Of a DNA stretch of 64,000 nt, positions 33,747 through 37,997 are shown one piece after another; position 1 is the stretch's first letter; each line of letters begins with the position of its first letter. Origin of the DNA: Pseudothermotoga sp. Lineage in GTDB: Bacteria; Thermotogota; Thermotogae; Thermotogales; DSM-5069. Under the pieces are notes generated by a model. The model worked only from the letters and a program-made list of their open reading frames with translations, searched no databases and was not told where the DNA came from. Location: assembly GCA_025060105.1 (NCBI GenBank), contig JANXCS010000001.1, forward strand, positions 228,282-292,281, in the 5' to 3' direction. Position numbers and translations under genes: made by a program.

Positions 33747-33775
33747 TTGAATTTTACCATTTGTGGTGTTAAAAT
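33747..33775 (+). promoter_or_regulatory. Sigma-A promoter of the hydrogenase maturation operon
   Basis: TTGAAT (33747-33752), 17 bases, TAAAAT (33770-33775). The expected start is at about 33781, leaving a leader of about 105 bases before the first start codon. Confidence 0.7.
33751..33759 (-). promoter_or_regulatory. Extended -10 promoter candidate for the pcm-macroglobulin operon
   Basis: The minus strand reads TGGTAAAAT (33759-33751), an extended -10 with a weak -35. It overlaps the -35 box of the divergent hydrogenase operon promoter. The pcm start is 33 bases downstream. Confidence 0.45.
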
Positions 33776-33782
33776 AAAATTA

Positions 33783-33889
33783 GAACAACCTTCTGAGGTG
33801 AAGGATGTTCAATCTGACACCGAGGAAGGGGAGAACACGTGCACAATTAACCCCCTTTCTCGGTGTTCGAGAGAGGGGGTTTTCATTTT
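33783..33889 (+). promoter_or_regulatory. Attenuator-like 5' leader with mutually exclusive hairpins
   Basis: Three stems can be drawn. Hairpin A: GAACA-A-CCTTC (33783-33793) with GAAGG-A-TGTTC (33800-33810). Hairpin B: 33817-33831 with 33852-33866, 15 continuous base pairs (one G-U) around a 20-base loop. Hairpin C: CCCCCTTTCTC (33851-33861) with GAGAGAGGGGG (33869-33879), 11 pairs (one G-U), followed by TTTTCATTTT, a terminator. B and C share 33852-33861, so B is an antiterminator for C. The right arm of C also holds the ribosome site AGGGGG. No Rfam class was recognised. Confidence 0.75.
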
Positions 33890-34130
33890 GGAGCGTTTGT
33901 ACATAGTGAACATCATAGTTGAAGATAGGCAAACAGCTTACAAACCTGTCAATGAACTTTTACACGATTTTGCCGACCTCATAAGACTGAGGGTGGGCTA
34001 TCCCGTGCCAGAAGAGAATATAGCGATCATTTTGTTGGTCGTGAAAGCCACTAATGACGAGGTAGGTAGCTTGACGGGTAAACTGGGACAGATCAAGAGC
34101 GTGCGTGTGAAGAGCACGGTCATAAAGTGA
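33888..34130 (+). CDS. TM1266-like putative regulator of the [FeFe]-hydrogenase system
   Basis: An 80-residue ACT-like protein (RLYIVNIIVEDRQTAYKPVNELLHDFADLIRLRVGYPVPEENIAIILLVVKATNDEVGSLTGKLGQIKSVRVKSTVIK). This family regularly sits beside hydrogenase maturases and is annotated as a putative regulator without a proven function. TTG at 33888 is preceded by AGGGGG at 8 bases. The frame is open further upstream (for example GTG at 33798), but that segment is the structured leader and its codons look non-coding. Confidence 0.82.
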   Translation: MERLYIVNIIVEDRQTAYKPVNELLHDFADLIRLRVGYPVPEENIAIILLVVKATNDEVGSLTGKLGQIKSVRVKSTVIK

Positions 34131-34142
34131 GGTGGTATCTCA

Positions 34143-35558
34143 ATGTTCACGCTGTTGAAAAAGATCAAGGAAGAAGAATCTTTTATACCTCATCAGAAGA
34201 TAGAAGAATTGCTTGAGAAAACAAGAAATCCTGAGAACAAGAAGGTTGAAATCATTGTCAACAAAGCTCTGCAGAAAGAAAGGCTCAGTCCTGAAGAAAC
34301 AGCAGTTTTGTTGAATGCAGATAAGCCAGAACAAGTGGATCTCATAGTGAATGCCGCTCGAAGGTTGAAAGAAGAAATCTATGGTAATAGAATTGTACTT
34401 TTCGCGCCCTTGTACATCGGTAATTGGTGTGTAAACAACTGTCAGTACTGTGGATTCAGAACGGAGAACACGGCTGTTGTGAGGAAAACTTTAAGCGATG
34501 AAGAACTTGAAGCCGAGCTTTACGCACTCACTTCGAAGGGTCATAAAAGATTGATAGTGGTCTTTGGAGAGCATCCTATGTACTCGCCGAAGTTCATAGC
34601 TAGAACTATAGAGAGGATCTACAGCTACAAAAACGGTACAGGTCAGATAAGACGTGTGAATGTGAACGCAGCTCCACAAACGGTGGAAGGGTACAAGATC
34701 ATTAAAGAAGTTGGCATTGGAACCTTTCAAATTTTTCAAGAGACGTACCATCTTCCGACGTACAAAAAGTTGCATCCAAGCGGTCCGAAATCTTCATACG
34801 TTTACAGGTTGTTTGGTTTGGACAGAGCGATGGTTGCTGGGATAGACGATGTAGGTATAGGAGCTCTGTTTGGCCTGTACGATTGGAAGTTTGAGGTTAT
34901 GGGGTTGATGTATCATACTAAGCACCTTGAAGAAAGATTCGGTGTCGGACCACACACGATATCTTTTCCTAGGGTTGAGCCTGCATTCAACACTCCTCTC
35001 GCTGAAACTCCTCCTCATCCTGTGAGTGATGAGGCTTTCAAGCGTGTGATAGCTATCATAAGGTTGTCCGTGCCATACACGGGTCTCATACTGACCGCTC
35101 GGGAACGCCCAGAGGTAAGACGTGAGGGACTGAAACTTGGAGTTTCTCAAATTGATGCTGGATCGAGCATTGGTGTCGGTTCTTACTCTCAACAAGATCC
35201 CGAGATCGTAAAAAAGAGTCAGTTCATCCTCGGGGACACTAGGAGTTTGGACGAAGTAATAAAAGAGCTCTCGCAGAACGGTCATATCCCTTCTTTCTGT
35301 ACGGCGTGCTATCGGGCTGGAAGGACAGGCCAACACTTCATGGAATTCGCGATACCTGGCTTTGTGAGGGAATTTTGCACTCCAAATGCTATTTTGACGT
35401 TCAAGGAGTACTTACTCGATTACGCTTCTGAAGAGACTAAAAAGATCGGCGAAGAGTTGATCAAAAATGAATTGGATAGAATGCCACCCGAAAGAAAAAA
35501 GATATTGGAAAAACTCTTGGTTCGTTTAGAAACAGGAGAACGTGATGTCAGACTGTGA
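34143..35558 (+). CDS. hydG: [FeFe]-hydrogenase H-cluster maturase HydG (radical SAM tyrosine lyase)
   Basis: Cleaves tyrosine to p-cresol, CO and cyanide, which become ligands of the H-cluster iron. The 471-residue TIM-barrel protein has the SAM cluster motif CVNNCQYC (C96, C100, C103) and the second-cluster site CTACYRAGRTGQ...REFC near the C-terminus. The length and both cluster sites distinguish HydG from ThiH. ATG follows GAGGTGG. It is part of a five-gene operon with hydE and hydF. Confidence 0.97.
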   Translation: MFTLLKKIKEEESFIPHQKIEELLEKTRNPENKKVEIIVNKALQKERLSPEETAVLLNADKPEQVDLIVNAARRLKEEIYGNRIVLFAPLYIGNWCVNNCQYCGFRTENTAVVRKTLSDEELEAELYALTSKGHKRLIVVFGEHPMYSPKFIARTIERIYSYKNGTGQIRRVNVNAAPQTVEGYKIIKEVGIGTFQIFQETYHLPTYKKLHPSGPKSSYVYRLFGLDRAMVAGIDDVGIGALFGLYDWKFEVMGLMYHTKHLEERFGVGPHTISFPRVEPAFNTPLAETPPHPVSDEAFKRVIAIIRLSVPYTGLILTARERPEVRREGLKLGVSQIDAGSSIGVGSYSQQDPEIVKKSQFILGDTRSLDEVIKELSQNGHIPSFCTACYRAGRTGQHFMEFAIPGFVREFCTPNAILTFKEYLLDYASEETKKIGEELIKNELDRMPPERKKILEKLLVRLETGERDVRL

Positions 35559-35826
35559 AGAATTGCTGAGGATGATAGCCCAACGATTCGATTGCAAAAT
35601 CTGGGTTTGTGAGAAAATGGGGAAACGAATTTCTCACGTGCGCGGTTTGAAGGCTGGTGAAGAAAAATACATAGAACCTACCGTAGTTTTTGAAGATGAG
35701 CGATATATCGTCTTTGTGGAGAGTGAAGAACTTTGCAATGAGCTGAAAGAGTTGTGTGCGAAGGTGATCGAATGTGTTCGGGGTTTTACAAAAGATTTTA
35801 AGACATCCGGAAGCGGTAACAGTTGA
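35545..35826 (+). CDS. TM1268-like small protein between hydG and hydE
   Basis: A 93-residue protein beginning MSDCEELLRMIAQRFDCKIWVCEKMGKRISHVRG. It has five cysteines (including IAQRFDCKIWVC and ELCNELKELC, CVRG) and an acidic middle. It overlaps hydG by 14 bases and hydE by 53 bases. ATG at 35545 has AGGAG at 6 bases; GTG at 35542 is too close. A gene in this position occurs in Thermotoga hydrogenase clusters, but no function is known. Confidence 0.72.
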   Translation: MSDCEELLRMIAQRFDCKIWVCEKMGKRISHVRGLKAGEEKYIEPTVVFEDERYIVFVESEELCNELKELCAKVIECVRGFTKDFKTSGSGNS

Positions 35827-36826
35827 AGAGGTAGCGTGGATAATCAGTAACGAAGAACTGAACGAACAGTTATTCTCTCTCGCTGATGAAGTGAGAAGAA
35901 AGTATTTGGGTGATGAAGTGTTTTTGAGAGGTATCATTGAGTTTTCGAATTACTGCAGGAATGATTGCCTCTATTGTGGTATTAGAGCCTCAAATAAAAA
36001 CGTTGAACGTTACAGAATGAGTCTTGAAGAGATCTATGAAAGAGCCAAGATCATAGCAAGCATGAACATTAAAACGATCGTGCTCCAGTCTGGAGAGGAT
36101 CCGTATTACACAAAGCAAATGATAGCAGATCTCATAGAAAGGATTAAAAAATTGAACGTTGCTATAACTTTGAGCATAGGTGAGAGGGATTTTGAAGAGT
36201 ACAGGATTTGGAAAGAGGCCGGTGCCGACAGATATTTGATGAGGCATGAGACTGCCGATGAGGAACTTTACGCAAGACTTCATCCTAACGATTCATTCCA
36301 ATCGAGAGTGGAACACTTGAAACAGCTCAAAAGACTTGGTTACGAAACGGGTGCTGGTTCCATGGTTGGATTACCAGATCAAACTGATCTTTCGTTGGCG
36401 AAAGATGTTTTGTTCGTATACCAGCTCGATGCAGATATGGTTGGAATAGGTCCATTCATACCTCATCCGGGTACCCCTCTTGGAAACTCAAAAGCTGGAG
36501 ATCTCATCAAGACTTTGAAACTGATATCACTTACAAGATTGTTTTTACCGGATGCAAATATTCCCGCAACAACAGCGTTGGGGACCATACATCCTCAGGG
36601 GAGACAGCTCGCTTTGAAGTGTGGCGCTAACGTTATCATGCCTAATTTCACTCCTTCGCCTTATCGTGCTCAGTACGCACTGTATCCAAACAAAATATGT
36701 ATCTTCGAGAATGACACAGCTTGCGGTCAGTGCACGAGAAAGTTGGTGGAGAACACCGGTTATAGGGTGAGTGAAGATTTTGGATATAGGAGGAAAATCT
36801 ATGAACGTTCCTCATGCGGGCTTTAG
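35774..36826 (+). CDS. hydE: [FeFe]-hydrogenase H-cluster maturase HydE (radical SAM)
   Basis: Takes part in assembling the dithiomethylamine-bridged di-iron precursor. The 350-residue protein has CRNDCLYC (C61, C65, C68) for the SAM cluster. C309, C317 and C320 near the C-terminus correspond to the auxiliary-cluster cysteines of the T. maritima HydE. GTG at 35774 follows AAGGTG at 8 bases. The last 26 bases overlap hydF. Confidence 0.96.
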   Translation: MFGVLQKILRHPEAVTVEEVAWIISNEELNEQLFSLADEVRRKYLGDEVFLRGIIEFSNYCRNDCLYCGIRASNKNVERYRMSLEEIYERAKIIASMNIKTIVLQSGEDPYYTKQMIADLIERIKKLNVAITLSIGERDFEEYRIWKEAGADRYLMRHETADEELYARLHPNDSFQSRVEHLKQLKRLGYETGAGSMVGLPDQTDLSLAKDVLFVYQLDADMVGIGPFIPHPGTPLGNSKAGDLIKTLKLISLTRLFLPDANIPATTALGTIHPQGRQLALKCGANVIMPNFTPSPYRAQYALYPNKICIFENDTACGQCTRKLVENTGYRVSEDFGYRRKIYERSSCGL

Positions 36827-37997
36827 GAAGTACATAGCCATTGTGGGAAGGCGAAACGTTGGCAAATCTTCCCTGATCAACGCTATCGTCGGCCAAGATG
36901 TGGCGATCGTCAGTGAGGTGCCTGGTACTACGACAGATCCAGTGTACAAAACGCTTGAATTGCATCCGCTTGGCCCAGTAACATTCATAGACACACCGGG
37001 AATTGACGATGAGGGTTTCTTAGGTGAGAAAAGGGTTGAGAGAGCAAAAAGATCTCTGTATCGTGCGGATGCAGCGATCCTCGTTGTCGATGATCAACCA
37101 ACTGAGCATGAACATTTCGCTGTAGAGCTGTTGAAACAGCTTGAAATACCATTTGTTATAGCTGTCAACAAAGTTGATTTGAAGAACAAAGTAGCGAGTT
37201 TATATGAGGGTTTTTGTGTTCCCATTGTCGAGGTTTCAGCCAAAGAGAGGAGAAACATACAAACTTTAATCGATTCACTCAGCAAAGTCTTACCGAATGA
37301 GGAATCCAGCACGATGGTTGCCCATTTGATGGGGGATCACAAAACCGTGGTTCTCGTCGTGCCTATAGATACGGCGGCACCCAAAGGCAGGCTCATCATG
37401 CCGCAGGTTGAAGCGATAAGAGAGATAATTGATCACGCCGGTACAGCTGTCGTCACAAGAGATACAGAACTTATAAATGCTTTGGAAAAGTTGAACTTCA
37501 AAGTCGATTTAGTTGTGACCGATTCTCAAGCGATCATGAGAGTGGAAAAAGTCGTACCAAGAAACATACCCTTGACCACTTTCTCCATCCTCGAATCTGT
37601 TAGTAAAGGCGATTTGAGACAATTCCTGGAGGGGTTAGAGGCGCTTGAAAGATTGAAAGATGGGGATACTGTAGCGGTGGTGGAAGCTTGCTCGCATGTT
37701 CCAACGTGTGATGATATAGGAAGGGTGAAAATACCAAGATGGATCAAGGAAAAGTTGGGACTCGACCTTAACTACAAGTTCTTCGCTGGAAAGGAATTTC
37801 CCGATCTCGAGGAACTTTCAAACTGCAAGTTGATGATCCATTGTGGTGGATGTGTACTGAATAAATCTGCGTTCATGAGGCGCATGAAGTTGGCGAAAAG
37901 ATTAACTTTACCCGTTGTGAACTACGGTATGTTGATATCTCGCCTTCACAATGTCTTGGACAGAGTCCTGGAACCTATCCTTAGGAAGCAAGTATAG
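36801..37997 (+). CDS. hydF: [FeFe]-hydrogenase maturation GTPase HydF
   Basis: Scaffold GTPase that assembles and delivers the di-iron subcluster to the hydrogenase. The 398-residue protein has the P-loop GRRNVGKSS (16-24), the DTPG switch and the NKVD motif. The C-terminal cluster ligands are ACSH and the IHCGGC motif (CxH...HCxxC). ATG at 36801 follows AGGAGG. The last 17 bases overlap the convergent aldo/keto reductase gene; no terminator is visible between them. The hydrogenase structural genes are not in the window. Confidence 0.95.
   Translation: MNVPHAGFRKYIAIVGRRNVGKSSLINAIVGQDVAIVSEVPGTTTDPVYKTLELHPLGPVTFIDTPGIDDEGFLGEKRVERAKRSLYRADAAILVVDDQPTEHEHFAVELLKQLEIPFVIAVNKVDLKNKVASLYEGFCVPIVEVSAKERRNIQTLIDSLSKVLPNEESSTMVAHLMGDHKTVVLVVPIDTAAPKGRLIMPQVEAIREIIDHAGTAVVTRDTELINALEKLNFKVDLVVTDSQAIMRVEKVVPRNIPLTTFSILESVSKGDLRQFLEGLEALERLKDGDTVAVVEACSHVPTCDDIGRVKIPRWIKEKLGLDLNYKFFAGKEFPDLEELSNCKLMIHCGGCVLNKSAFMRRMKLAKRLTLPVVNYGMLISRLHNVLDRVLEPILRKQV

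Follow-up and report, generated by a model that had tools for sequence, protein, structure and literature searches.

In the RAT elements recognized by LicT, SacY and BglG, a pseudo-symmetric hairpin with two internal loops is bound by a protein dimer and is mutually exclusive with a terminator; the bound form prevents termination. The yjdF motif is an orphan riboswitch candidate, a conserved RNA tied to one small gene of unknown function (PMC4793209). A multi-omics study of T. maritima described ten non-coding RNAs, including riboswitches, and its main text mentions neither TM1266 nor hydrogenase (PMC3636130). Control of H-cluster assembly is poorly known. The TM1266 family (TIGR03959 / PF21699) owes its label of putative regulator of the iron-only hydrogenase system to its gene neighbourhood, and TM1266 has so far had no target to go with that label; an RNA partner was reported in none of the papers searched.

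We analysed a 64,000-nucleotide stretch of DNA (the window) from a Pseudothermotoga sp. (Thermotogota, genome of 1.92 Mb), in which a member of this family is the first gene of an operon with a structured leader. Searches with Rfam 15 (4227 families, gathering scores) matched one tRNA elsewhere in the window and nothing at the leader, whose best sub-threshold matches lay at least 20 bits under the cut-off. Nor did Rfam 15 match the leader in relatives, comprising 20 Thermotogota loci, 20 mostly Bacillota loci and a set of 7 loci (E up to 0.5). The RNA was not described in the open-licence main texts searched; an earlier description may exist in the 2017 survey that reported 224 candidate RNAs, or in supplements, though Rfam 15 holds no match. 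We rated the leader RNA as a new class within a known kind of RNA switches. Our leading interpretation, which we hold to be about evenly poised between right and wrong, is that the leader belongs to an undescribed class of cis-regulatory RNA controlling TM1266 and hydE/hydF/hydG, sometimes hydA, and that its most likely binder is TM1266, acting in negative feedback.

Leader anatomy and predicted switching

All window features described here lie on the plus strand. The operon opens with the TM1266-family gene (33888–34130; TIGR03959 E 3.6e-30, PF21699 E 2.3e-29), which scored 103.6 bits against the curated 60.8 bits of TIGR03959 and whose TTG start agrees with the aligned starts of relatives. 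It is followed by hydG (34143–35558; TIGR03955 E 3.4e-159), a small conserved protein of ~94 aa (35542–35826), hydE (35774–36826; TIGR03956 E 1e-116) and hydF (36771–37997; TIGR03918 E 7.4e-152). No NCBIfam or Pfam family matched the ~94-aa protein. A homologue was seen in one Neomarinimicrobiota hyd operon, and the protein was missing in five Petrotoga-like genomes without TM1266 and the RNA. At seven loci the gene after hydF resembled, by eye, an aspartate ammonia-lyase, which is consistent with the role reported for ammonia-lyases in H-cluster assembly (PMC11736057).

The operon and a protein-isoaspartate methyltransferase gene are divergent, so that a promoter region of its own serves the leader. 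A sigma-70-like promoter (33747–33775; −35 TTGAAT, 17-nt spacer, −10 TAAAAT) had 9/12 matches and a TG ahead of the −10, with 2 such promoters found against 0.3 expected in shuffles; it would place the transcript start near 33783. Hexamers resembling a −10 element lay at most 46 nt upstream in 49/68 Thermotogota copies, compared with 51/490 random 50-mers. The folding energy of the 131-nt leader was −50.6 kcal/mol versus −31.5 ± 3.5 kcal/mol in dinucleotide shuffles (z = −5.5, 0/200).

The conserved part of the leader is an aptamer-like hairpin of ~41 nt (33789–33829), delineated by two alignments (A1 and A2), covariation counts and covariance-model matches. It consists of a 6-bp P1 (33789–33794/33824–33829), a GA/GA internal loop (33795–33796/33822–33823), a 4-bp P2 of GGUG/CACC (33797–33800/33818–33821), an AA/GA internal loop (33801–33802/33816–33817) and P3 (33803–33806/33812–33815). 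Both core strands read CUGA-NNNN-RAGG, giving two 2x2 GA/RA internal loops around a 4-bp helix and, therefore, an approximate two-fold symmetry. Each half contains a C-G pair, an obligatory U.G wobble and then G.A and A.R mismatches, and the wobbles were near-invariant (110/115 and 108/115). We scored copies with R1, a covariance model of the aptamer, and R2, a second such model; the window copy scored 60 bits with R1 and 51.4 bits with R2, and was the sole match in its own genome.

The original prediction had placed a hairpin at 33783–33810 and missed the aptamer. The former can indeed form (−13.3 kcal/mol), but it competes with the better 33789–33829 hairpin (−20.9 kcal/mol). An alternative to P1–P3, it is compatible with the antiterminator as a proposed ON-state partner, and it appeared when truncated transcripts with 3' ends at 33861–33876 were folded to minimum energy. 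The antiterminator was correctly drawn, as a 15-bp helix (33817–33831 with 33852–33866) in which 15/15 pairs were canonical, and this helix is kept in relatives. Its 5' strand is supplied by the aptamer 3' strand. The 11-bp terminator that had been described is the real core of a longer, 14-bp helix (33849–33862 with 33868–33881, then TTCATTTTGG). This intrinsic terminator (33849–33881, then TTCATTTT) also sequesters the ribosome-binding site, AGGGGGU at 33874–33880, which sits in its 3' arm 7 nt ahead of the TTG at 33888, as had been proposed. Positions 33852–33862 are common to both helices, which makes antiterminator and terminator mutually exclusive, again as proposed.

At 37 C the aptamer plus terminator had an energy of −46.3 kcal/mol, and the 5' hairpin plus antiterminator −40.2 kcal/mol. 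When folding of the growing transcript was computed, the aptamer formed first, the antiterminator displaced it once the end passed 33861, and the terminator prevailed only with its complete 3' arm, at 33881. Given this predicted folding order and these energies, stabilisation of the aptamer should lead to termination. That is, the aptamer hairpin may serve as both sensor and anti-antiterminator: when bound it would retain 33818–33829, blocking the antiterminator and letting the terminator form, which would silence transcription together with the ribosome site. In the unbound state, the antiterminator and 5' hairpin would form ahead of synthesis of the terminator 3' arm, and the operon would be expressed.

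Relatives retain the elements of this design. Antiterminator pairing was conserved (duplex z < −2) in 55/68 Thermotogota copies, the failures being mostly compact leaders without a terminator. A 12-nt downstream segment with at least 11 pairs occurred in 36/68 copies compared with 37/680 controls, with paired base changes. Eleven compact leaders hold GAGGAGG in the aptamer 3' strand, just 5' of the start codon, and therefore aptamer formation would mask their ribosome site. We infer that the terminator and compact designs would both be OFF upon aptamer stabilisation. The leader thus presents mutually exclusive anti-antiterminator, antiterminator and terminator helices, in the manner of a PyrR-like attenuator; it also has a conserved aptamer and an expression platform, with covariation, as a riboswitch does structurally.

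Conservation, covariation and gene context

The TM1266 gene was present in 67/103 Thermotogota genomes. We collected the Thermotogota core from leaders upstream of TM1266 by a sequence pattern that carried no pairing requirement. Across 49 distinct aligned copies, 95.3% of cells were paired and 9/14 pairs had changed on both sides. The covariation score was reached by 0/500 shuffles, sliding of the partner strand abolished the pairing signal, and RNAalifold, with the alignment as sole input, predicted the same structure. P2 in most Thermotogota was GGUG/CACC or GAUG/CAUC. The aptamer is thus strongly covarying, and it precedes TM1266, hydG, hydE, hydF or hydA, in many cases at positions unlinked to one another. 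At loci L047 and L049, from Marinitoga/Petrotoga-related genomes, the leader lay directly 3' of a tmRNA gene.

Copies occurred well outside Thermotogota. A DNA pattern applied to 84,980 species found copies in one Ignavibacteriales and one Neomarinimicrobiota genome, both upstream of TM1266. Model R1 matched 16/149 Neomarinimicrobiota genomes and 7/296 genomes of the Ignavibacteriales' phylum, with nearly all copies upstream of TM1266, and 4/5 of its Bacillota matches were upstream of TM1266-hydG, hydG or TM1266-hydE. A relaxed descriptor then matched 23/60 upstream regions (3 long-loop cases set aside), 0/60 on the opposite strand and 0 in shuffles; the descriptor demanded P2 pairing, and therefore pairing in those Bacillota rows is partly by selection. 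In contrast, gene placement of R2 matches in Bacillota is independent evidence. Across 254 whole Bacillota genomes, 29 of the top 30 R2 loci were upstream of TM1266 (23), hydE (2) or hydG (4), and among 20 weaker matches 11 were upstream of hyd genes or TM1266, 4 were upstream of transporter genes and 5 were due to chance. Those 5 loci (L294, L298, L300, L308 and L313) were judged chance matches, as were L160, L166 and two Butyrivibrio pattern matches lying inside a coding gene.

The Bacillota copies kept pairing with P2 variants such as CUUA/UAAG, UAAA/UUUA, AACC/GGUU, GUUU/AAAC and UUGC/GCAA, among others. In the four-phylum set (80 sequences), the covariation score was 0.551 versus 0.222 in shuffles, and all four P2 pairs alternated among several pair types. 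We rejected a constant 4-bp P2, since P2 in some Bacillota copies is shortened to 3 nt on one or both strands, and the outer P1 pairs past the inner three were without conservation in Bacillota. The leader fits the definition of the class modelled by R1 and R2, which calls for YCUGA-N4-RAGG ... YCUGA-N4'-RAGG, complementarity of the two N4 strands and a position ahead of TM1266 or a hyd gene. As judged from these pattern and model matches, the leader RNA is present upstream of equivalent genes in four or more bacterial phyla, and for this reason it probably tells cells when to stop making the hydrogenase's iron catalyst. The original prediction of an attenuator or riboswitch-like leader had named a lack of conservation or covariation as the result that would count against it; both were present, in Thermotogota and in three further phyla.

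A role as leader of the [FeFe]-hydrogenase maturation operon, which had likewise been proposed, was supported, but the regulon proved wider and takes in unlinked hydF, hydG, hydE and hydA and some transporter genes. Additional R1 matches were found upstream of unlinked hydF (Thermotoga, two Pseudothermotoga-like and Fervidobacterium-like genomes, Athalassotoga), of hydG (Kosmotoga-like genomes, Athalassotoga), of hydE (one Thermotogota genome) and of hydA-TM1266-hydG (Fervidobacterium-like genomes); these genus names are our own assignments. The RNA thus recurs independently across the genes of one pathway. It also lay directly upstream of an ECF transporter S-component at two Bacillota loci, and an NMT1/SsuA-type ABC transporter stood 3' of it in three distant genomes (Thermotogota, Bacillota).

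Several other arrangements were observed. A similar ECF S-component gene lay just 5' of TM1266 in genome G004, where no RNA copy was detectable. At nine loci (Ignavibacteria and some Neomarinimicrobiota-phylum genomes) TM1266 was followed by a TonB-dependent-receptor-like gene, in place of hyd genes; a domain search covered one of these loci, L164. A 28.7-bit RNA copy preceded a gene (L289:876–1421, minus strand) whose 182-aa product belongs to no known family, a possible new regulon member. In one Bacillota leader (L284), two tandem aptamer copies lay back to back upstream of TM1266.

Candidate binders of the leader RNA

One account, that the leader is a plain intrinsic terminator with stabilising 5' hairpins, which senses nothing and is kept by close kinship alone, is extremely improbable. 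A terminator-like hairpin does exist in the leader, and T. maritima is known for many UTR features. This account is opposed by covariation across phyla with P2 sequences wholly replaced, by recurrence at one pathway's unlinked genes and by conservation of the mutually exclusive helices; the 0/60 opposite-strand control speaks against a chance origin of the cross-phylum copies. Given a sensing element, the binder could be a trans-acting factor other than TM1266, such as the operon's ~94-aa protein or an Fe-S regulator. The absence of the ~94-aa protein from the five Petrotoga-like genomes without the RNA fits such a factor, but Ignavibacteria have the RNA and TM1266 without a hyd operon, and the ~94-aa protein was not seen in the stretches read there. 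We consider another factor improbable.

We favour TM1266 itself because the RNA tracks TM1266 and not hydG, which points to a PyrR-like scheme with the first gene's small protein as binder. Genomes positive for the RNA carried TM1266 in 64/64 cases in Thermotogota (those with strong R1 matches, among 103 genomes), 15/16 in Neomarinimicrobiota and 49/52 in Bacillota (hypergeometric p of 1e-24, 2e-15 and 2e-12, respectively). Five Petrotoga-like genomes keep hydG-hydE-hydF and lack both the RNA and TM1266, probably through a single event that removed the adjacent RNA and gene. Conversely, eight genomes with the RNA and TM1266 had no HydG match above the cut-off, and in these TM1266 is followed by a TonB-dependent-receptor-like gene; genomes without H-cluster genes are mostly draft assemblies. 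The involvement of a TM1266-like protein, guessed at in the original prediction, has gained indirect support. The T. maritima TM1266 structure is solved (2nzc, four chains in the crystal entry), and an RNA of two-fold pseudo-symmetry would suit a protein dimer. TM1266 may therefore bind as a dimer, perhaps with a small co-effector, in PyrR-style negative feedback, and such a co-effector would reconcile the protein-binder layout with the transporter genes. Counting against TM1266, the family has no known RNA-binding domain, and copies ahead of transporter genes also fit a directly sensed metabolite. TM1266 net charge, considered as a sign of RNA binding, showed no difference between RNA-positive and RNA-negative Bacillota. 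TM1266 occurs in 206/398 Bacillota genomes, many without detectable RNA upstream, and co-occurrence in Thermotogota discriminates weakly because TM1266 is near-universal in hyd systems.

A direct small-molecule riboswitch ranks close behind the PyrR-like scheme because some copies precede transporter genes; we put its chance a little short of even. Here the hairpin itself would bind a small molecule or metal species of H-cluster assembly or of the transporters and turn the genes off, as a new riboswitch class spanning at least four phyla, with TM1266 as a controlled gene and the protein closest to the ligand. The two GA-rich loops, near-invariant and each with its obligatory U.G wobble, resemble a site for a ligand or an ion, tandem copies as in the Bacillota leader L284 are found in some riboswitches, and three unrelated transporter types follow copies (ECF S-component, NMT1/SsuA-type ABC and, after TM1266 in Ignavibacteria, TonB-dependent receptor). 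Nevertheless, no single ligand candidate explains all of the transporters, and the hairpin is a small, almost helical structure in which the two loops are the sole evident pocket. Moreover, no strong RNA-positive genome lacked TM1266 in Thermotogota, nor in Neomarinimicrobiota bar one chance-like match, a link that a metabolite sensor does not need. Some genomes carry the RNA without a HydG match, which makes a pure sensor of an H-cluster intermediate less likely.

Comparison with known regulatory systems

These observations tie TM1266 to a defined RNA element, to a regulon and to a proposed OFF switch, and do so in model organisms that can be cultured, Thermotoga among them. Should TM1266 be the binder, the ACT/NikR-like fold would be a new type of RNA-binding regulator; a small-molecule ligand would instead be a new signal inside the cell for hydrogenase assembly. 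The unlinked copies mark transporters of unknown substrate as probably tied to hydrogenase assembly.

Among known systems, we compared the leader with PyrR-binding attenuators (RF00515), RAT elements and the yjdF motif. Like the PyrR attenuators, it has a small putative regulator gene first, recurs at several unlinked loci ahead of genes and transporters that belong to a single pathway, and divides anti-antiterminator, antiterminator and terminator roles among its helices. RF00515 was also its best sub-threshold Rfam match by bit score, at 26.2 bits against a cut-off of 54 (E 0.08), which places the leader outside that family. The weak match is mostly to the terminator helix, the conserved sequence and loops differ, and the two proteins, TM1266 and PyrR, share no relationship. 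The leader hairpin shares with the LicT/SacY/BglG targets its two internal loops, pseudo-symmetry and exclusion of the terminator; in contrast to those elements, its hairpin, when stable, would permit termination, and sequence and proteins are unrelated. As with the yjdF motif (PMC4793209), the RNA lies nearly always ahead of one small gene and its ligand is not guessable from that gene, whereas its structure differs and it would also govern, from several loci, a defined cofactor pathway.
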